Both the position numbers and the translations under genes were made by a program. From Thermoclostridium caenicola (lineage in GTDB: Bacteria > Bacillota > Clostridia > DSM-8532): DNA of 32,904 nucleotides. Shown one piece after another: positions 6,595 to 29,787 of the stretch; position 1 is the first letter of the stretch, and each line of letters begins with the position of its first letter. Location: positions 1 to 32,904 of the forward strand of contig NZ_FQZP01000030.1 in NCBI RefSeq assembly GCF_900142095.1. The letters are read 5' to 3'. A model generated the notes under the pieces. That model did not search any database and was not told the DNA's origin. It saw nothing but the letters and a program-made list of their open reading frames with translations.

Positions 6595-7918
6595 TGCTTT
6601 GTCCCCTTGCGGAGCGTAGATTGCAACAGGTTGTCCAAAACGACAAGGATGTATATACCTTGTATTCGTCCCCTCACGGAGCGCTAATTGCAACCCGGTC
6701 AAGTTGACGTTGCAAACACTCTATTTCTCGTTTTCGTCCCCCTCACGGAGCGCTAATTGCAACCATGGAATTGCTGAGCACATTCACTGATGAGCAAATG
6801 TTTTCGTCCCCTCACGGAGCGCTAATTGCAACTTATCATGGTGTACCTCTCTGATGATGATGGACGTTTTCGTCCCCTCACGGAGCGCTAATTGCAACTC
6901 GTAAATCACATACGGAAACAGCTCGGCTGGGAAGTTTTCGTCCCCTCACGGAGCGCTAATTGCAACTGGAATAACAAGTCTACGCGCAAAAAAAATCAAG
7001 GTTTTCGTCCCCTCACGGAGCGCTAATTGCAACCTGAATTATGCAAAATAAAACATCAAGCAATTGATGTTTTCGTCCCCTCACGGAGCGCTAATTGCAA
7101 CGAAGGAAAAACTATGATTAACAACAACACCACAAGTTTTCGTCCCCTCACGGAGCGCTAATTGCAACATACTTTCTGCGCCGTATATTCTTGTTGTCGT
7201 CCGTTTTCGTCCCCTCACGGAGCGCTAATTGCAACAACACAACTTCAATTCTGCTGTTGCGCTGGAAGCCAAAGTTTTCGTCCCCTCACGGAGCGCTAAT
7301 TGCAACTTTTGTGGTGTCATAAACTTTAATGACCTCGCCAGTTTTCGTCCCCTCACGGAGCGCTAATTGCAACCTGCGATGGCCAGCATATCATCCAGGA
7401 CACCTTCACGTTTTCGTCCCCTCACGGAGCGCTAATTGCAACAATACTACCTCGGGCCTAACGCAGATACAGCATTGTTTTCGTCCCCTCACGGAGCGCT
7501 AATTGCAACGCCCTTCAAGTATCACCTGACCTTCCCCCTTAATGTTTTCGTCCCCTCACGGAGCGCTAATTGCAACGAAATATGCTGCGTATTGTGGAGC
7601 CAGCACCACAGGTTTTCGTCCCCTCACGGAGCGCTAATTGCAACCTTTTATCGAGGGAATATCACTCTCAAGAATGTTGGTTTTCGTCCCCTCACGGAGC
7701 GCTAATTGCAACATGGATGTTTTCATGGAATTGCTTCAGGCTATGCAGGTTTTCGTCCCCTCACGGAGCGCTAATTGCAACGCGCATCTATCCCATACAC
7801 CTATGAGGACGCAAAGCAGTTTTCGTCCCCTCACGGAGCGCTAATTGCAACACTTAAGGCGTGTAAAAAATCGTGTAACGGAGTGGTTTTCGTCCCCTCA
7901 CGGAGCGCTAATTGCAAC
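6595..7918 (-). CRISPR. Type III-A CRISPR array, 20 repeats and 19 spacers
   Basis: Repeats are 33 bp. Seventeen (from 6800 to 7918) are identical; 6730-6763 has one extra C, 6662-6694 has one substitution, and 6595-6627 is degenerate (9 of 33 differ). Spacers are 33-38 bp. I assign transcription to the minus strand: read that way the repeat starts GTTGCAATTAGCGC and ends GAGGGGACGAAAAC, so crRNAs would carry the 8-base tag ACGAAAAC, like the ACGAGAAC and ACGGAAAC tags of staphylococcal, streptococcal and mycobacterial III-A systems. The decayed repeat is then at the leader-distal end, as usual, and the leader lies between array and cas6. The array is codirectional with the csm genes. Confidence 0.98.
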
Positions 7919-8035: not shown

Positions 8036-8842
8036 TCAGCCCGGTGCGAATCCCTCCGTTTTCTCCTGTTCACTTGATATCCGCACTGTTTTCTTAACAT
8101 AATCATTGGTACGGACGCTTCCCATGCCCAGTGATGTTTTTATGCCGACTCCGCAGTATGACGAGAAGAACAGTAGCAGATGCCAGATCTCCTGCAGGGG
8201 GGCCGGCAGCTTGGAGTTCAGAACAACGTGCCCGATGAAGCCTGGTATGACTGCGCCCTTAAGGTGATAATAACTGCTCTTTAGCCTGTATGAATCTATT
8301 TTTATGCCGTCTATTAGAAACCTCTGCGCATCGCTGTCCTCAATCTTGATATATCCCGAATACATGTTCCACTTGTTTATCAGGCTTCCTACGATATGCT
8401 CCACCGATGGGAAAAGCATATAAGTCTCTTTGCTTTTAAAGGAGGTTGGAGTTAAAAAGCTCATAAGCGTTCTGTTGCTGTGATAAGCTTCTGAAGCGGA
8501 TTTTATGATGTCCTGAACGGTGGATAACCCCGTGCACTCCTTCGATACGATGCGTATATCCAGCTCATTGTTCGTCATGGTCATGCTTTCAAGCTGATCC
8601 AGGACAGGTGCCGCTTTGTCTATCGCCTCTTCCCCGAGTATGTTGACTGTCCATACAGCCTCTTCCCCGTTTTTCACAGGAACCAGAGACTGGTTTATCG
8701 GGGTCAACTGTTCGGCATGTAGCCTTGCGACATATTCAGGCTCCAGCTTCTCCATGAGCATGCCGTAAAACTGATACCCCATGGCGTATGTAAACCTTTG
8801 CCCGGATCCGTTGGTGACATTCATCCTGAACTGCTTAATCAT
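8036..8842 (-). CDS. cas6: Cas6 pre-crRNA endoribonuclease
   Basis: A 268-residue Cas6: cleaves the array transcript inside each repeat to release crRNAs with the 8-base 5' tag. The sequence shows the usual N-terminal ferredoxin-like half with LHAEQLTPINQSLVP, the central LMSFLTPTSFKSK stretch, and a C-terminal half ending in the glycine-rich loop GVGIKTSLGMGSV, which is the hallmark of the family. Length is normal. A His in the N-terminal half (LHAEQ) is the likely general base, by analogy. The ATG at 8842 has GGAG eight bases upstream. It is the last cas gene, 40 bases after csm5, and lies next to the leader. Confidence 0.93.
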   Translation of the reverse strand: MIKQFRMNVTNGSGQRFTYAMGYQFYGMLMEKLEPEYVARLHAEQLTPINQSLVPVKNGEEAVWTVNILGEEAIDKAAPVLDQLESMTMTNNELDIRIVSKECTGLSTVQDIIKSASEAYHSNRTLMSFLTPTSFKSKETYMLFPSVEHIVGSLINKWNMYSGYIKIEDSDAQRFLIDGIKIDSYRLKSSYYHLKGAVIPGFIGHVVLNSKLPAPLQEIWHLLLFFSSYCGVGIKTSLGMGSVRTNDYVKKTVRISSEQEKTEGFAPG

Positions 8843-8882
8843 TGGCCTAACTCCAATCCTGTCAATCGCTTCATCTTGCCAT

Positions 8883-9959
8883 TCATGATATCTCGAGAAC
8901 CTTGCAAACGCCGAAATGATAACTGTGCCCGTGATAGTTCGTATGCTTCAGGCGATGGGGCGAAGCTCCCAGCTTAACATCTTCATGGTGTTTATGGTTT
9001 CTGAACGTTTGTGTCATGAACTCGGATACAAGCCTGAGCCCCTCCTGCTTTCCGCACAACGGGTAAATGATGTTCTTGGCAAAGTATCCGCTTCCCCCGC
9101 CCAAAACCAGACAATCCGAGAAGTCCTCCTGGACGGCGTTTTGAGGCAGCCTAAACATGGGGATATAGGTTTCCCTGTAAAACCGGCCAAACTGTGATAT
9201 GGCATCGCGGATATCATCAATATCGATAGCTTTCAAGACGGAAGTATCAAGCGTGAGCTTAAAATGCAACTTGACCCCCGGTTTCACCGATTCCCTTATC
9301 ATATTGATGGATTTTCGCACACCTGAAACGGACAGATCATCTTTTCTGGTCAGGACCATATCTGAACGGTCAATGGGGAGACTGTCGGAAATCATAATCC
9401 CGCGCATCACGCTGTTGACAGCATTCCTGGTTTTTTGCGTCAGTCCAAGTGTATGCAGATACCTGGTTTCAATGGAATCCGCATCATGCCTTCTTATGCT
9501 GGTGACCGTCGGTTTGTCCTGATCCTGCAGGATCATTTTTATCAGAAGAGCGGTCCTCAAAGCTCCTTTTAATGAACTGCCTGGGACATAAGGTCGATTC
9601 TGGGCGTCATGAACAAATTCCTGAATCTCCATCAGCGATCTGTTTTCAACCAGCGCATCACCCACATAGGTCTCATAAAGTTTCATCTTTTCCAAATCGG
9701 CATCGGAAAAGCCGCATTCACGGATAAAATCATGCAGATAGGCCGAATCCCTGAAAAGCATGAAATGCTCATACTGGTCCATCAGGCCGTACTCAACAAC
9801 TTTGTTCATGAACTTTTCCATGTCCAGAAAAATCGCCTTTTTAGTGGACGGATCAAAACAATATTCCTTTTTTGTGTATCTCCTGCCGCTGCCGATAAAC
9901 AACGGACCCTTCGTTTCCAGGAGCATGTCATATACTTTCAGATGTCCTTTTTGAATCAT
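8883..9959 (-). CDS. csm5: Csm5, type III-A effector subunit (RAMP)
   Basis: A 358-residue RAMP protein that caps the 3' end of the crRNA in the Csm complex and helps its maturation. Visible features are the N-terminal KGPLFIGSGRRYTKKEY strand-loop and the RAMP glycine motif VPGSSLKGALRTALL near residue 130; the C-terminal part has a GGGSGYF glycine loop. The start I prefer is the ATG at 9959, which overlaps the csm4 stop as ATGA and has GGGGG seven bases upstream; an ATG two codons earlier sits too close to that site. The gene lies in the canonical csm order before cas6. Confidence 0.93.
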   Translation of the reverse strand: MIQKGHLKVYDMLLETKGPLFIGSGRRYTKKEYCFDPSTKKAIFLDMEKFMNKVVEYGLMDQYEHFMLFRDSAYLHDFIRECGFSDADLEKMKLYETYVGDALVENRSLMEIQEFVHDAQNRPYVPGSSLKGALRTALLIKMILQDQDKPTVTSIRRHDADSIETRYLHTLGLTQKTRNAVNSVMRGIMISDSLPIDRSDMVLTRKDDLSVSGVRKSINMIRESVKPGVKLHFKLTLDTSVLKAIDIDDIRDAISQFGRFYRETYIPMFRLPQNAVQEDFSDCLVLGGGSGYFAKNIIYPLCGKQEGLRLVSEFMTQTFRNHKHHEDVKLGASPHRLKHTNYHGHSYHFGVCKVLEIS

Positions 9960-10942
9960 AGGCATACCCCCAAAAAGACAGGCTTCCCATACCGGTACAC
10001 GGGATGTTTTCCCCTGTTGCCGGATACATCAAAAATGCCTCCCCGGTACGGGTACTGGAACATGGAGCCTGAATCGAAGAAATACTGCGTTTGCTTTTTC
10101 AACGGCGTATCAGCATAGGTTTCAGACTGCACAAACCCTCCCCGCCGGACAAGACCGTATGTACTGTTTTCAACTGCATCATGCATTTCCTGGTCCATGG
10201 GCAACGAAGTGGTGAGGGTGATATAGCGATTTGCTTCACCCACAGTAGCCTTCTGTAGATAGCCTGCAAGAAGCAGCTCGTCTTCATTTTCGGCAGCCTC
10301 AAGGTCAATGCATGCCTTCACCCTGAACTTCCCATAACCCGAGCTGACCTTTCCGCCGATACCTTCAACGCCCAAAAGCCGGATCAGCTTTTGCAGATCC
10401 GGCACCAGGCTTTTATCCGCGCATCCGGCGATGAAATACAGTCCGGCATCATCATGAAATGTAAAGACGCCGACGGAATAGGGCCGTGGCACTTCCTGAG
10501 CCGTGATCGACACTTTATCAACGATGCCGTACACGCCAAAATCGGTGTCCACCCCGGCGGCATCAAACACCATTTTACCCTGCAGCGAAGCAATAAAGTC
10601 CGGAAGAAGGCCTATCGGCAAATAAGAAAGCTTTTTCATAGCTTTCCGAAGTTCCGGCGGTATTTCAAGCCGTACACTTGCCGTTGCATAAGGCTTTGGC
10701 ACATACAGCGTTTCGCCTTTATACGGGAAAGCGTCGCTGAACCTGAGTTCATCATTTTGGGCCAGGTTCACCCATCGTTCGATGCCCTGCACGCCTTCCG
10801 CTTTCAGCGCCATATGGCAGAGAGCTGAAAAAAGCGTATCCGCACAGAAATTCATCCGGCCTGTATCCAGAGAATCGCCTGCGTCGCTCTCTCCCACATG
10901 CAGTGAAGTCGTAAACTCCAGCTTAAACAGAAAGTAATTCAT
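9956..10942 (-). CDS. csm4: Csm4, type III-A effector subunit (RAMP)
   Basis: A 328-residue Cas5-like RAMP that binds the 5' tag of the crRNA and contacts Cas10 in the Csm complex. Evidence is the N-terminal FKLEFTTSLHVGESDAG, the ADTLFSALCHMAL segment typical of Csm4, the glycine-rich VEGIGGKVSSGYGKF in the middle, and the C-terminal end RYGKPVFLGV. The start is placed at the ATG at 10942 (MNYFLFKLEF); an in-frame TTG six codons upstream is possible. The start overlaps the csm3 coding end by 20 bases and its stop overlaps the csm5 start, so subunits are translationally coupled. Confidence 0.93.
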   Translation of the reverse strand: MNYFLFKLEFTTSLHVGESDAGDSLDTGRMNFCADTLFSALCHMALKAEGVQGIERWVNLAQNDELRFSDAFPYKGETLYVPKPYATASVRLEIPPELRKAMKKLSYLPIGLLPDFIASLQGKMVFDAAGVDTDFGVYGIVDKVSITAQEVPRPYSVGVFTFHDDAGLYFIAGCADKSLVPDLQKLIRLLGVEGIGGKVSSGYGKFRVKACIDLEAAENEDELLLAGYLQKATVGEANRYITLTTSLPMDQEMHDAVENSTYGLVRRGGFVQSETYADTPLKKQTQYFFDSGSMFQYPYRGGIFDVSGNRGKHPVYRYGKPVFLGVCL

Positions 10943-11597
10943 ACGACTCAACTTCCTCAAAAATGGATTTCAGTTCGTCCAGGTTGAGGTCATAGCCTTC
11001 TTCAGCCGGGATGATCTCAATCTTCTCAAAGCTGACGCGTCCGCTGCCCCTGGTTCCGTGGCCTCCGAGATAGTCCAGCTGGAGCAGTTTCATCGCCCTT
11101 GCCAGATTCGAAAGATCATCCTTCACCTCTTCTTTGCACTCCAAATCGTAAACAATATTTACGGCAAACCTGACGCCGCTGACGACCCGTTCAATCTGGC
11201 GCGGATTGGCCATCGAGGTTCCCCGGTCAATGGTGTTCTCAAACTTGATCTCTGTGAGCCCTACGGACTGGAACTCTTCGCTGTTGCATACATAGGCATC
11301 GGCAAACTGCAGCCTGCCTTTTATGATGGGTTTGCCGCTGGAGCCAAACAGTCTTCGGATCTCAATCGGATCGTCATTGGGATCGGGCAATTTGTGAATA
11401 TCCTCGGCATAGCTCCTGGCCAGCAACGTTCTGAGTTTTCCCTTCAGGCTGCTGCCCGGAACGATGGGCATGTTCGTCCTGGTATCCTTTATAACCGGGC
11501 TGTCAACCGAGCCTATCGCGGCAAATATGTTGGACCCGCCTATATGCAATCCTGTCAGAACTTTCAGTTCGGATTTGATTATGAGTTTTCCGTACAC
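10923..11597 (-). CDS. csm3: Csm3, backbone RNase subunit of the type III-A complex
   Basis: A 224-residue RAMP that forms the helical backbone of the Csm complex and cuts bound target RNA every six bases. The N-terminus MYGKLIIKSELKVLTGLHIGG is diagnostic; the catalytic aspartate (D33 of the Streptococcus thermophilus protein, in the AIDSPVIKD segment) is kept as D32 here in SVDSPVIKD, so target cleavage should be active. The glycine motif PGSSLKGKLRTLLA follows, and GGHGTRGSGRV near the C-terminus. I choose GTG at 11597, because GAGGAGG lies eight bases upstream and family members begin here; a longer frame to 11645 would overlap csm2. Several copies per complex are expected. Confidence 0.95.
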   Translation of the reverse strand: MYGKLIIKSELKVLTGLHIGGSNIFAAIGSVDSPVIKDTRTNMPIVPGSSLKGKLRTLLARSYAEDIHKLPDPNDDPIEIRRLFGSSGKPIIKGRLQFADAYVCNSEEFQSVGLTEIKFENTIDRGTSMANPRQIERVVSGVRFAVNIVYDLECKEEVKDDLSNLARAMKLLQLDYLGGHGTRGSGRVSFEKIEIIPAEEGYDLNLDELKSIFEEVESYELLSV

Positions 11598-11610
11598 GAC
11601 CCTAACCTCC

Positions 11611-12150
11611 TCAGTCATCACCGTCGTAGAAGCGATGATAAGCAACCAACGCTTCCATATAATGCATGAAATTGATGAATTTCTCCCGGCTGTCGCCGAT
11701 GCCGTTCAGGTATTCCAGCAGTTTGCTCTTTTCCACGAAAGGCAAGACAGCCTTTTTGTCACGACCGGCTTCGTAGAGAATTCTCACGCGCAGCAGCTGA
11801 ATCTTCTTCATGCTCTCGGGCAAGAGTTTCTCGTCGGTTCTCAATCGCTCCACATTGAAAATCTCCAGTATCTGGCTCAGAATCTTTCTGATTTTTGATG
11901 TCGTGATCTTGTTGTCCTGCCCCTTTTTCTGGCTCTGTTCCCCGATTAATTCCAGGATCACCTGTTCGGCTTTATCCACATAGTCTTCCGGGAGATCCAG
12001 CTTTCCTATTTCCTTCTTTCTCACGTGTTCATGCTGGCGGCCGCCGCCGGTATAAGCGCCTCCTGTTTTGGATTGCGTGGCTCTTGCCGATGGCGCGGGC
12101 ATATTATGCCTTGCCGCCCATTTTTCAATTCCGTCCTGTAACGTACCCAT
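11611..12150 (-). CDS. csm2: Csm2, small subunit of the type III-A complex, with N-terminal extension
   Basis: The C-terminal 125 residues (from about YVDKAEQVILELIGEQ onward; ITTSKIRKILSQILEIF, then PFVEKSKLLEYLNGIG and FMHYMEALVAYHRFYDG) match the all-helical Csm2/Cas11 small subunit that lines the target RNA. At 179 residues it is longer than most Csm2 proteins (about 120-140): the first 50 residues are low-complexity, rich in Gly, Ala, Gln and Lys (GGAYTGGGRQHEH), and look disordered. The ATG at 12150 is chosen because AAGGAG lies eight bases upstream; a GTG three codons earlier has no spacing to it. It sits between cas10 and csm3 as expected. Confidence 0.9.
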   Translation of the reverse strand: MGTLQDGIEKWAARHNMPAPSARATQSKTGGAYTGGGRQHEHVRKKEIGKLDLPEDYVDKAEQVILELIGEQSQKKGQDNKITTSKIRKILSQILEIFNVERLRTDEKLLPESMKKIQLLRVRILYEAGRDKKAVLPFVEKSKLLEYLNGIGDSREKFINFMHYMEALVAYHRFYDGDD

Positions 12151-12206
12151 ACCTTTCACTCCTTTATGGCTATTCCGATTCCTGATCAGCTTTCAAGGCC
12201 GTTGAT

Positions 12207-14624
12207 TCAGTTTTTGGCTTCCTGCAAAGCGTCATATTTTGCTCTTGTCAGGTAAATATAGATATAAATGGCGCATATCAGTTCTTTCAGATCGCGGTTA
12301 TCCATTATCCATCGATACATGTGTGTTGAGAATTCGCGATAGGCGGACCTGTACCGTGCCGAAGCGCTGCCGGATGGCCTCATCCTTGCCAACAGATAAG
12401 CGTATCTTGCGATATTGATTTTATCGCCCGTAAGATACTGGCTTCTCAGGAATGTAAGCAAACGGTACAGGAAAGCACTTCCACGCCCTTGCTCATTGGC
12501 GTAGAAATCAAAGAACTCCTGTATCTGGTGTAACTTCTCTCCAATAACCCGATTCAAGAAATCATCCCATTTGAAAGTGAGGCTGTCGTCGGCTTCAAAC
12601 AGCGTGATGCCGCACTTGCCGTCAAGCTTTTTTGCCGCATCCTCCAGCTCACCGGCTTCATTGGCCGCTTTATGGATGGGATATTTCTGAGCATGGATGC
12701 ATATGCCGCCTGAAAGCGTCAATGTGCCGGCCGTATAACGGCGGAATGCCCGATAGATATCTGCGGCGGCTTCAATAACGTTAGCCCACTGGCCTGCCAT
12801 GAAGATATCGTCGCCGCCTGAATAAATGATGATGACTTTCCTTCCCCGCTCATCCTCCGGCTTGCCCCTGAGTCTGAACCGGCCAACCTGCGGATTGCCC
12901 CTTAGAATGGAGTTGATATAATACTTGAAAAACATGGTCATCCGCCTGGAAAATGACGCTGTCCTCGTCAAGGAGACATACCTGTATCTTTCCGCAGGAT
13001 CATCGGTTTTCCGTTCAAATCCGGACGTAAACGTGCTGCCAAGGTTATCGACATCTGCCCTGAAATAGCCTATCTGTTTTATCCCCTCCGAATCATCAAG
13101 CAGTTCTTCCAGCAGGCTGTTGTGGCAGTAATCGCCCATAAAGAGGGTGGTGCTGCGCTCCAGATCCGGATATACTTTGTTTTTGGCATAGATACGGAGT
13201 ATATCGGTTCCCTTGCTCAGCTCTTCCCTGACCCGATCTTCGTTGGTCAGATGCAGGTACGCTTCGCCCTCCGACCGCGGGAGTTCAATGTATGGCAAAT
13301 CAGCAATGGGCCTTGGGGTTACCATAATAAGCAGTTCCTCTTTGCGCAGCAAACCGGATATGTTGCGGAAAACACTGCACCAGCGGCAGATATCCTCATC
13401 GGGCAACAGCCTGTCCATGGCTCCGCAGGTTTTGCATTCCCTTTCACCGCTCAAAAGAGGCTGTTGATTCATTTCCAGTATTTCATCAGCCGTATAGCGG
13501 TGCAGCTTGTTGTCGGCCAGCGCATGGCTCAGCCTCATGAAGATGTTTTTATACGGATGATCACCTTCAGGAATATTCATCAGGTCGTTGGCGCTGCATT
13601 CGGTATACGCTGCCGACAGGTATAGCCTGATGCCGAAGTTTTGACGGAGCCATTGGTTGAATCTTGCGGATATAGCATCGACCTTATTTCTAACCTCCTG
13701 CGTATTGGGAAGCAGGATATAACAATGACCTCCGCCGGTGTAAATAAGATTTGTACGGGAAAGGCCGCATTCGGTCAGCAACTCATCGCACAGATGCTCC
13801 ATGAGAAGCTCCAGCATGAAAGAACGGCTACGAAGCGTTTTCAATGCGCCTTTTGAACTGATATTATATATAAACTTCTGAATCCCTGAATAATCGGCCG
13901 AGAACATCAGGAATGCCTGCTCCTGGCAGAACGCTTCTTCCCTGCCCCATATCTCATCGCGAAAACCTGGACGGTTGTTTGCCGTCAGGTATTCGCTGAC
14001 GCACGCGCCAACCGCGGCAGTCATTTTCAGATGATCAAACATGGAGATGTCCGAGGCATCTTTGTTACCGACACTGGAAGGCACAAAGGACAGGCATCTT
14101 TCCAATGCCGAAAGAAGGACGTTGATGTACGTCTCTGCGGGTTGAACGTTTTTTAAATGCTCTCTCACCTCATGAAGGATCTGAAGATATTGGCCTGAGC
14201 TTATTTCATTTTTGCCGCCGTTATCCGGGAAAGGAATGCGTTCATCATCATAATAAGCCGTTCCATAGCTGTAGTCGAGCGTATTGCCATGCAGCAGGTT
14301 GAATACGGACCTAAGGGGCACATGAATATAATCCTGCTCCTCTTCTTCCCGCTTGCTGCTCCCCCTGACTTTTCCCTCAACGATACTGTTCGCTATGTAG
14401 GCCACATAGGCAGGAGATTCGTTCGGTAAGTCCGCATGCAGCAGATCAGCTTTATGGTGGAAACGCACGCAATCAAGGACATCAGGCTGCGGGAAGCATT
14501 CTTTAAGGAATGCCTGGCCCAGAACGCCATGATTGGTACCTTCTGCCGAACCTGAGCGATAAACAAGCTTCCCCACATCGTGAAGCAGACAACCCAATAT
14601 TGCTTGAAGCGTTTTCTCTCTCAT
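12207..14624 (-). CDS. cas10: Cas10/Csm1, type III-A signature subunit with HD nuclease and GGDD cyclase motifs
   Basis: An 805-residue Cas10. Residues 13-19 are LLHDVGK, the HD motif for single-stranded DNA cutting, followed by RFHHKAD. A zinc-ribbon-like segment CKTCGAMDRLLPDEDICRWC lies in the middle. The second palm domain carries SGGDDIF with G603-G604-D605-D606, the active site that turns ATP into cyclic oligoadenylates when target RNA is bound. Both activities therefore look intact. I choose the ATG at 14624 (MREKTLQ) with AAGGA nine bases upstream; an ATG at 14648 overlaps the csm6 stop but lacks a good ribosome site. It follows csm6 and precedes csm2. Confidence 0.96.
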   Translation of the reverse strand: MREKTLQAILGCLLHDVGKLVYRSGSAEGTNHGVLGQAFLKECFPQPDVLDCVRFHHKADLLHADLPNESPAYVAYIANSIVEGKVRGSSKREEEEQDYIHVPLRSVFNLLHGNTLDYSYGTAYYDDERIPFPDNGGKNEISSGQYLQILHEVREHLKNVQPAETYINVLLSALERCLSFVPSSVGNKDASDISMFDHLKMTAAVGACVSEYLTANNRPGFRDEIWGREEAFCQEQAFLMFSADYSGIQKFIYNISSKGALKTLRSRSFMLELLMEHLCDELLTECGLSRTNLIYTGGGHCYILLPNTQEVRNKVDAISARFNQWLRQNFGIRLYLSAAYTECSANDLMNIPEGDHPYKNIFMRLSHALADNKLHRYTADEILEMNQQPLLSGERECKTCGAMDRLLPDEDICRWCSVFRNISGLLRKEELLIMVTPRPIADLPYIELPRSEGEAYLHLTNEDRVREELSKGTDILRIYAKNKVYPDLERSTTLFMGDYCHNSLLEELLDDSEGIKQIGYFRADVDNLGSTFTSGFERKTDDPAERYRYVSLTRTASFSRRMTMFFKYYINSILRGNPQVGRFRLRGKPEDERGRKVIIIYSGGDDIFMAGQWANVIEAAADIYRAFRRYTAGTLTLSGGICIHAQKYPIHKAANEAGELEDAAKKLDGKCGITLFEADDSLTFKWDDFLNRVIGEKLHQIQEFFDFYANEQGRGSAFLYRLLTFLRSQYLTGDKINIARYAYLLARMRPSGSASARYRSAYREFSTHMYRWIMDNRDLKELICAIYIYIYLTRAKYDALQEAKN

Positions 14625-14644
14625 TCCATCATATCCTTCCCGAT

Positions 14645-15991
14645 TCATGATTTTTCTTTGACAGGAAGCATGACCAGCGTTTTTATGCGCTCATTCATCT
14701 CGCGATACGAGTTCCAATACGAGGGTTTGATCTTCATGCCGGATTTTTCGGCTACGGATCTGATAAGCGACATGATGCCGTCCGCCGTTTTACCGCATCT
14801 TTTGAGCAGCCATGAATCCGTCACCGACACTATTTCATGGGCCGCCAGGTTGCGTGACATCTCCTCAATGTCGCGCAGTTCTCTTACCTTCTCCGCCAGG
14901 CCCCTATCCGAAAGGAATTCATCCAATACGGGTGCCAGTTGTGCGGATGTATAAACGGAATCTTTATAGCATGAAAACTCTCCATCGAGGATCGCCAGCA
15001 TTTTTGCGCCTGTCTCGTTTTTGCTCAGCATCTCTCTGGTCAGCCAGTACTTCACGGTACCTTTTCTCTCCTTCGCAAGGCAATAATCCTTGATCCTTAT
15101 GCCGCAATACGCCAAAAGAATTGACTCAAACAGATCGAGCACCACCGGGGTAATGCCTCTGATGAAATCCGCATACTCCTGCCTTTCGGCTTTCACCTGA
15201 AGCCAGAGCAAATATTCGAAAACGGCAATCTCATCGCTTTGCTTTATGGGAAAAACATCGTAATGACAGTCCTTCAAAGCCCTTTGGACACCCGGAATGT
15301 CCAGAAGCAATCTGCACTTCGCGGCTTCCAAAAGCTTAATGGCTTCGGGGCAAATCTGCTGCCTGATATCGTTCGCCACAGAGAGAGCCGCGTTATAATC
15401 GTAGACATCCACATGCTTGCAGACAATTGCCTTTTTTATCCTTGCATTGAGGTTCAGGTATGACGAAACGGAGGTACGGTCGACAAAATCTTCCCTGTTG
15501 TCCTCATTGAGCTCCCATAAAGCATCAAAATCATCTACATGTTCGCGGGCAGGGTTGCTTTTTCCTTCCGGCGTGCTCACCTGTATTGGAAGATAGTTTC
15601 TCTCATTAAGCGCCGCAATGGTTTGCAGCGCGCTTTTCATGGCCGGAGTCCCTGAAGAGACATTGACCAATATCTGATGCCCCGGATTTTCTTCTTCCAG
15701 CCGTTTCAGAATGGTTTCAAATTCATTGTAGAAATCATCAAAACGGTGGACTTCAGTGAGATTCCTGTTGATCAACAACTCGACTTGAATATGTATGCCC
15801 AGCAGTTCGCAGAGTTTGGAAATGGAATGACGATAGCGATCATCTTTATCATGGATTTCTGATATTTCCTTGGACAAATAGAGAAGAACTTTTTCCGGAC
15901 GGTATTTTCTGCAAATGTGAAGCATCGCGCCATCATGAAAGTGCGAAATTGGATCCGTCATGCCCACTGGTGAAAACAGGATGTATTTCAT
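14645..15991 (-). CDS. csm6: Csm6, CARF-HEPN ancillary ribonuclease activated by cyclic oligoadenylate
   Basis: A 448-residue Csm6. The N-terminal CARF domain begins MKYILFSPVG and contains VNVSSGTPAMKS (S112-S113-G114-T115), the nucleotide-binding loop. The C-terminal HEPN domain has RNLAAH (R380 to H385), the R-X4-H catalytic pair of HEPN RNases. It is expected to be a cytosolic dimer that degrades RNA non-specifically when Cas10 makes cyclic oligoadenylate, causing dormancy or abortive defence. The ATG at 15991 has AGAGGGG seven bases upstream; the longer frame to 16027 has none. Placing csm6 first in the operon rather than after csm5 is a less common order. A promoter lies at 16069-16096. 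Confidence 0.93.
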   Translation of the reverse strand: MKYILFSPVGMTDPISHFHDGAMLHICRKYRPEKVLLYLSKEISEIHDKDDRYRHSISKLCELLGIHIQVELLINRNLTEVHRFDDFYNEFETILKRLEEENPGHQILVNVSSGTPAMKSALQTIAALNERNYLPIQVSTPEGKSNPAREHVDDFDALWELNEDNREDFVDRTSVSSYLNLNARIKKAIVCKHVDVYDYNAALSVANDIRQQICPEAIKLLEAAKCRLLLDIPGVQRALKDCHYDVFPIKQSDEIAVFEYLLWLQVKAERQEYADFIRGITPVVLDLFESILLAYCGIRIKDYCLAKERKGTVKYWLTREMLSKNETGAKMLAILDGEFSCYKDSVYTSAQLAPVLDEFLSDRGLAEKVRELRDIEEMSRNLAAHEIVSVTDSWLLKRCGKTADGIMSLIRSVAEKSGMKIKPSYWNSYREMNERIKTLVMLPVKEKS

Positions 15992-16068
15992 TACAATACC
16001 CCTCTTTTCCATGAGTTCATGCATCAAAGTATTGAAAGCGATGTTTTGAAATGTGAATACTACACTTG

Positions 16069-28519: not shown

Positions 28520-28747
28520 ATGGCCATTAGGGTACACCTGGAAGAGGTACTGAAGAAAAAGGGCATGACATCAAAAGAGCTGTGCGCGCTAATCGGCATC
28601 ACCGAGGCAAACCTTTCCATCCTGCGCAGCGGAAAAGCCAGGGGCATTCGGTTCAGCACCATGAACAAGATTTGCTACTATCTTGGCTGCGATGTGGGAG
28701 ATATCCTGAAATTCGACGGAAACCTGGAGGATAAGGACGATGAATAG
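28520..28747 (+). CDS. Small XRE/YozG-type helix-turn-helix regulator
   Basis: A 75-residue Cro/C1-type DNA-binding protein: residues 4-66 form the five-helix HTH (LEEVLKKKGMTSKELCALIG, ITEANLSILRSGKARGIRF, STMNKICYYLGCDVGDIL), followed by an acidic tail. This HTH_26 family accompanies DUF2975 genes. ATG at 28520 with GAGGAGG upstream. It likely binds the twin palindromes at the head of the operon, an inference from context. Its 3' end overlaps the start of the lipoprotein gene by eight bases. Confidence 0.9.
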   Translation: MAIRVHLEEVLKKKGMTSKELCALIGITEANLSILRSGKARGIRFSTMNKICYYLGCDVGDILKFDGNLEDKDDE

Positions 28748-29787
28748 AAAAGCGATTGCATTGCTGTTTGCCTTTTTTACATGCTTTTTTGCTTCGGGCT
28801 GCCAGCTCGCCCGGGAGGATTTGGCAGAAACGTTGCCAAACGGTATACACTCCCCCTGCTCCGGGCTGCCAGCTCGCCCGGGAGGATTTGGCAGAAACCC
28901 GGGGCAGCGACCGGCTGATCGGGGTGTTCATCACCAGGGAGCACCTGGACCTTTTCGATATGGAACGGTACCTCAATGATAATATCCATAAGATTGCAAA
29001 AGGCGGTTCAATCGCCATCGATGGTGATATCAGCAAGTATGAGGGACGCCTTTATGCTGAAATTGTCACGCGCACGCTTACAAACCCGGAAACAGGTAAA
29101 TCGTTTGAAATCACGGAGTTCTCCTTTGAAGGCATTGACGGCATTCCCTATTTTTGTGCGACCAAACCACCCAATGGCTATGAAAACGATTTTACCATAA
29201 ACGGTTCCGATGAGGCCATCAGTGATGGTTTCTCCAGGACTCTCTTTAATGATGAGGAAGACAGGATTGAACTTGAAGGCACTATCTATTTTTGGGCATT
29301 CCGCAACAGCCGCACATCCTTTTTTATGAATCCGATATACCAGGGCCAGGATGGCAGGATATACGTTGTTTCAAATACAGGAACCATACTGGCAGGTGAC
29401 CAAAGCGAAGGTACGGCTTTTACCCAAACCATTGAGTCTACCACAACCGTCACCGAGAACGAAAAAAGCAAAACGCATCATGCCTTAATCAGGATGTCCT
29501 TTGTCGCGGTTAATCCGCCAAGACAAGTCATCGTCCTGCAAATGGATGAGGACAGCAATATCCTGTCCCGGGAAGCGTACACACCAGGCCAGATGCCGGG
29601 TACGATGACACCGGAAAGCAATGCGGCCTACCTCATCGTTGAAACTCATAAGCAGGACCAGGATGGAAACCGTGTTGTATCCCGCGCTTTGTATGATGAA
29701 AGCCACAAGCATCTGGAAACCTTATATTGCAGACCCGACGGCATTTGCGTCAAGCAGTTTACTGAGCTGAACTGGAACAGGCCCTGA
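28740..29787 (+). pseudogene. Lipoprotein of unknown function, frame broken by a repeat-plus-linker insertion
   Basis: The gene starts at ATG 28740 (MNRKAIALLFAFFTCFFASGCQ: signal peptide and lipobox ASGC) with GGAGG nine bases upstream, overlapping the regulator gene. The frame then leaves after LAREDLAET, because a 42-bp segment is present twice (28790-28831 and 28857-28898) with a 25-base linker; 67 bases is one more than a multiple of three. From the second copy the frame is open to 29787: LAREDLAETRGSDRLIGVFIT and a beta-rich domain of about 290 residues ending TELNWNRP. Removing one copy and the linker would restore one lipoprotein of about 325 residues. A frame to 28756 begins at TTG without a ribosome site and is unlikely to be used. 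The domain is not recognised. Confidence 0.8.
28790..28898 (+). repeat. 42-bp direct repeat pair inside the lipoprotein gene
   Basis: Copies at 28790-28831 and 28857-28898 differ at one base (28794 T, 28861 C). The 25-base linker between them matches neither flank, so this is not a plain tandem duplication. TTTGGCA near the end of copy 1 pairs with TGCCAAA at the beginning of the linker, giving a hairpin at the junction. Confidence 0.92.

Follow-up and report, generated by a model that had tools for sequence, protein, structure and literature searches.

A phage-derived spacer, very probably integrated off target, splits a lipoprotein gene in Thermoclostridium caenicola

Within the window, a 32,904-nucleotide stretch of the Thermoclostridium caenicola genome (contig NZ_FQZP01000030.1), a lipoprotein gene is interrupted by 34 nt of phage DNA lying between two identical 33-nt copies of host sequence. 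In the donor phage the inserted segment abuts the trinucleotide TTC, and the host encodes a complete type I-C adaptation operon. A second CRISPR array of the genome links host and phage, and the insert is absent from relatives. We conclude with high confidence that off-target spacer integration by Cas1-Cas2, possibly together with Cas4 (a 'neo-CRISPR' event), truncated the gene. The coordinates of the features are collected in Table 1.

Table 1. Features of the split lipoprotein gene and of the type III-A locus in the window.
Feature	Position	Strand	Basis
HTH_26 (Cro/C1) regulator, upstream neighbour, overlaps the lipoprotein start	28520..28747	+	
Lipoprotein gene, 5' part: signal peptide and lipobox (FASGC)	28740..28979	+	By-eye comparison with 17 related loci
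First copy of the duplicated target, 33 nt (as long as the I-C and III-A CRISPR repeats)	28799..28831	+	
Putative misplaced spacer, 34 nt	28832..28865	-	34/34 identical to phage contig IMGVR_UViG_3300010277_000144
Lipoprotein gene, 3' part, open, no longer in the frame of the signal peptide	28861..29787	+	Homologous to 17 related loci
Target-site duplication, copy 2	28866..28898	+	Identical to copy 1
Type III-A array: 18 copies of a 33-nt repeat, most often spaced 67 nt apart (7/17 intervals)	6662..7918	+	
III-A cas genes: cas6, csm5-like RAMP, csm4, csm3-like RAMP, csm2, cas10/csm1, csm6	8036..16027	-	

The reading frame that opens with ATG 28740 runs into the insert, loses its register there and ends at a stop codon (28977-28979) after 79 amino acids. 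Relatives of the gene were found in 12 of the 60 other genomes searched, and five loci from genome_contigs brought the total to 17. At every one of them the N-terminal and downstream parts lie in a single frame, and the lipobox cysteine is kept in 15 (it is absent in L011 and L017). The 67-base duplication-plus-insert was absent from all 17 loci, which belong to related species. No Pfam or NCBIfam family was found for the 3' part. The original prediction, that a frame-shifting event of 67 bases had split the gene, is borne out by the two copies 67 nt apart and by the single frame of the relatives. As 67 leaves a remainder of one when divided by three, the gain displaces the reading frame and cuts the lipoprotein short, and the shortened product is presumably non-functional. 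The downstream frame is intact and the break therefore looks recent.

The duplication had been described as 42-bp repeats separated by a 25-base linker. A 42-nt segment does occur twice (28790-28831 and 28857-28898, 67 nt from start to start) with one mismatch, and 37 nt of it, starting at 28795, are repeated without a mismatch. The division that carries meaning, however, is a 33-nt duplication and a 34-nt insert, rather than 42 and 25. The left junction (28831/28832) is set by the phage match, and the right junction is ambiguous over CGGG (28862-28865). Because these last four bases of the insert also precede the target, five registers are possible for the right boundary, with duplication lengths of 33-37 nt. 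Taking the insert as 34 nt gives a host duplication of 33 nt, and this is the only register in which TTC adjoins the protospacer; the remaining four have CCG, CCC, CCC and TCC there. The apparent 42-bp repeat is thus explained by the 33-bp duplication together with the resemblance between the end of the spacer and the host flank, which have 8 of 9 nt in common (TGCTYCGGG; 0.0003 in a simulation, 0.0085 for the four exact bases). This homology could be due to chance, could have aided site choice or could be a mark of template switching.

To set a background we scanned 856,304 of the 2,890,486 bases of the genome (~30%) for exact direct repeats of at least 20 nt at offsets of 30-150, after masking the arrays of types I-C and III-A. 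Only the lipoprotein repeat and 23 pairs belonging to the third CRISPR array were returned. Since no other non-CRISPR repeat pair was present in the scanned part, the lipoprotein duplication exceeds what chance would produce.

The origin of the linker, previously left unexplained, can now be assigned: it is phage DNA. When two overlapping parts of it were searched in 2.9 million viral contigs, both matched one single contig, IMGVR_UViG_3300010277_000144. The identity covers all 34 nt of 28832-28865 and ends sharply on either side. The contig is uncultured and carries terminase, portal, neck and primase genes, as expected for a phage, and the 34-mer sits within the intact open reading frame of the primase. 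Allowing up to three mismatches, the 34-mer was present in one of 391 genomes of the class, namely this genome, once. The phage terminase had no match in the host assembly. A 41-nt query of the named phage and plasmid collections returned short chance matches only. Viral contigs L029, L030 and L032 encode terminases 93-100% identical to that of this phage and may represent the same phage or its close kin in other samples.

Other sources of the linker were rejected. No other copy with three or fewer mismatches exists in the host assembly, and the best matches to existing I-C or III-A spacers covered 13 of 25 positions, which is the chance level. A tandem duplication with filler sequence was dropped once the phage origin of the linker was recognized. 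The hairpin formed by linker and repeat end, which had been offered as a clue, spans the host/phage junction and is not supported as one.

On the phage strand corresponding to the crRNA sense, which is the minus strand of the window, TTC lies immediately 5' of the 34-mer. It thus adjoins the protospacer in the orientation correct for a type I-C PAM; the identity of the PAM comes from the literature and not from this array, TTC being given as the canonical I-C motif in excerpts of PMC8482600 and PMC8406640. Attempts to derive the PAM from the array's own spacers yielded nothing usable, either when 64 viral loci were searched by BLAST with 113 spacers (97 from the I-C array and 16 from the III-A array, whose 138-nt interval was left out of 17) or when stretches of the I-C array were compared with a phage collection, and four viral scans for I-C spacers showed no usable protospacer. 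Spacer matches at E >= 0.004 were taken as chance. Three records labelled 'Bacteriophage sp.' from human faeces (MT837669.1, MT839601.1 and MT838487.1) match the I-C array piecewise at many places, which would fit CRISPR arrays within these records.

Including the array linked to Cas13a, 124 spacers were compared with four phage loci at a threshold of at least 80% identity over the spacer length. One of them matched this phage: spacer 5 of the Cas13a-linked array, at 34 of 34 positions and 1.4 kb from the first protospacer. The TTC that flanks the spacer-5 protospacer lies on the side opposite to that expected for I-C and so gives no confirmation of the PAM. Among the 97 I-C and 16 III-A spacers tested there was no match to the phage, which leaves the misplaced unit as the sole I-C-type record of it that we saw.

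The genome carries machinery suited to such an event. The I-C array (contig C12; L022 16161 to L023 3723) consists of 98 repeats of 33 nt, 97 of them exact, at spacings of 65-70 nt, with 67 in 40 of 97 intervals; its spacers measure 32-37 nt, with a mode of 34 (40/97). Next to it stands the operon cas3-cas5-cas8-cas7-cas4-cas1-cas2, in which Cas1, Cas2 and Cas4 score above the NCBIfam cut-offs. This cas1 is the only one detected in the genome, and the III-A cas gene cluster contains none. A Cas13a gene adjoins an array of 12 repeats of 32 nt (contig C23; L111 15674-16435 and 16590-20000). The genome therefore carries systems of types I-C, III-A and VI-A, with one detected cas1. All 98, 18 and 12 repeats found lie elsewhere, so that the misplaced unit is outside every array.

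Several irregularities were seen in the arrays themselves. In the I-C array one spacer is present twice, two adjacent repeat-spacer units (L023 2144-2275) are identical over 66 nt, some spacers look like variants directed at one target (spacer 5 with spacer 20, and spacer 16 with one in L023), and degenerate repeats follow the array. The 138-nt interval of the III-A array conceals a repeat that has diverged, and at 6598 there is a degenerate one.

The target sequence was also compared with the normal integration site. The new 'repeat' equals the I-C repeat at 12 of 33 (minus) or 15 of 33 (plus) positions. Against the III-A repeat the figure is 15 of 33, a value that 0.8% of genomic 33-mers reach and that is the best of several comparisons. 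The likeness between the target and the CRISPR repeats of the host is weak and, given several comparisons, does not convince. At its end the I-C leader carries TTTTTGCT; this 8-mer is found again ending 5 nt short of the left junction (chance ~0.0015, noted post hoc).

Cas1-Cas2 attaches both 3' ends of a processed prespacer at the edges of the first repeat, one to each strand, and gap repair then doubles the repeat, as described in passages of PMC6519985 and PMC6895254. Such integrases are also active in vitro at sites outside CRISPR loci (excerpts of PMC6895254) and, when overexpressed, in chromosomes (Nivala 2018, as cited in part of PMC11788318). The duplication length, the insert length and the PAM at the lipoprotein gene all agree with the I-C adaptation complex, and Cas1-Cas2 was presumably the agent. 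In the sequence of events that we propose, a phage of the IMGVR_UViG_3300010277_000144 type would have infected a cell in which the Cas4-Cas1-Cas2 of contig C12 was active. The complex would have excised the 34-nt prespacer adjoining the TTC PAM, which would then have gone into the lipoprotein gene instead of the leader end of the I-C array. Two strand transfers staggered by 33 bp, a spacing dictated by the normal repeat, would be followed by gap repair that copied those 33 bp onto both sides of the spacer. Insertional inactivation would result from the 67-nt gain, which would shift the frame and cut the lipoprotein to 79 amino acids.

Some points weigh against integration. The spacers of the I-C array gave no confirmation of TTC as its PAM, the target is only weakly like the CRISPR repeats, and the process does not itself predict the 8-of-9 homology between spacer end and host flank. 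This homology, with its low chance expectation, is what favours replicative, microhomology-mediated template switching, in which the copying strand would have departed from the host gene at 28831, taken up 34 nt from the phage and re-entered the gene 33 nt upstream by way of TGCTYCGGG. Such a process would account for both the capture of phage DNA and the duplication without Cas1. However, the outgoing junction is devoid of microhomology (phage G versus host C), and the 33-nt duplication, the 34-nt insert and the TTC would all become coincidences. We consider template switching very unlikely.

Equally improbable is a functional minimal CRISPR unit, in which the spacer integrated by Cas1-Cas2 would also be transcribed and confer immunity from its new place. 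Spacer anatomy and PAM are correct for it, and on the minus strand the new 'repeat' can form a stem of -10.3 kcal/mol, which 6% of genomic 33-mers equal or better. In contrast, the low agreement with the I-C repeat noted above speaks against this kind of unit, as does the crRNA-sense strand being antisense to the lipoprotein gene. Because of this orientation and because its 'repeats' are unlike those of the host, a useful crRNA is unlikely, and the misplaced unit probably yields none.

It had further been suggested that the break was recent or kept switchable. The first part stands, and the event was probably recent. As for the second, a maintained switch of lipoprotein expression through recombination between the copies would be compatible with the 37-nt perfect direct repeat and the undamaged downstream frame, and the exact repeat means that recombination could in principle reverse the break, as had been proposed. 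Against it, the element is absent at all 17 related loci, no one-copy form was seen in the genome, and the insert is phage DNA rather than a conserved cassette, which leaves such a switch with minimal probability. An assembly artefact, in which a mis-closed gap gave a false duplicate with a linker, might be entertained for a draft genome of 125 contigs, yet it has next to no credibility because the insert has the exact length of a spacer, a phage donor, an adjacent PAM and a duplicated 33-nt target on its two sides, and because the 856 kb scanned outside the CRISPR arrays hold no similar structure.

Off-target spacer integration thus remains the preferred explanation, and as a kind of event it is not new. 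Nivala and colleagues are said to have noted natural neo-CRISPR examples in Yersinia pestis and Sulfolobus islandicus. As far as excerpts relay it, the study of Nivala, Shipman and Church (2018, Nat Microbiol 3:310; via PMC11788318 and PMC9456107) likewise concerns spacers outside an array with a repeat-length target duplicated. By comparison with the neo-CRISPR loci presented in those excerpts, ours is a wild event in a type I-C host with Cas4, with a phage donor and its PAM, a frameshifted protein gene and a second array of the genome that targets the same phage. Ectopic acquisition in the arrays of Streptococcus thermophilus and S. mutans (passages of PMC8047081) shares Cas1-Cas2 insertion away from the leader end, but stays within the array and duplicates a true repeat, whereas the present unit lies outside every array. 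The I-C Cas4-Cas1-Cas2 of Bacillus halodurans, according to excerpts of PMC6519985, has the same gene set and PAM-side processing; its repeat is 32 bp instead of 33, and its normal target is the leader-proximal repeat instead of a lipoprotein gene. A natural I-C case with donor phage, PAM, machinery and broken gene was not found in a literature search at the level of abstracts and passages, and we make no claim of priority. Off-target integration being already known (Nivala 2018), the identification of donor phage, PAM and broken gene in a wild case is what makes this locus notable.

A more speculative extension is that the insertion hit a surface gene that the same phage needs as a receptor or entry factor, so that loss of the lipoprotein gave resistance and was selected, with the TGCTYCGGG end homology having helped the choice of site. 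We regard this as unlikely. If true, CRISPR adaptation would act as a phage-triggered insertional mutagen whose effect could later be reversed by recombination between the duplicated 33-37 bp.

At this one locus the donor phage, the PAM, the target duplication and the damaged gene are recorded together, very probably a case of CRISPR adaptation making a mutation in nature, and an uncultured phage is linked to its host. The signature, phage DNA of spacer length that was next to a PAM and is bracketed by a duplication as long as the repeat, can be searched for across genomes. The finding lends support to the view that off-target integration truly generates insertional mutations, and possibly new CRISPR loci, in wild bacteria.
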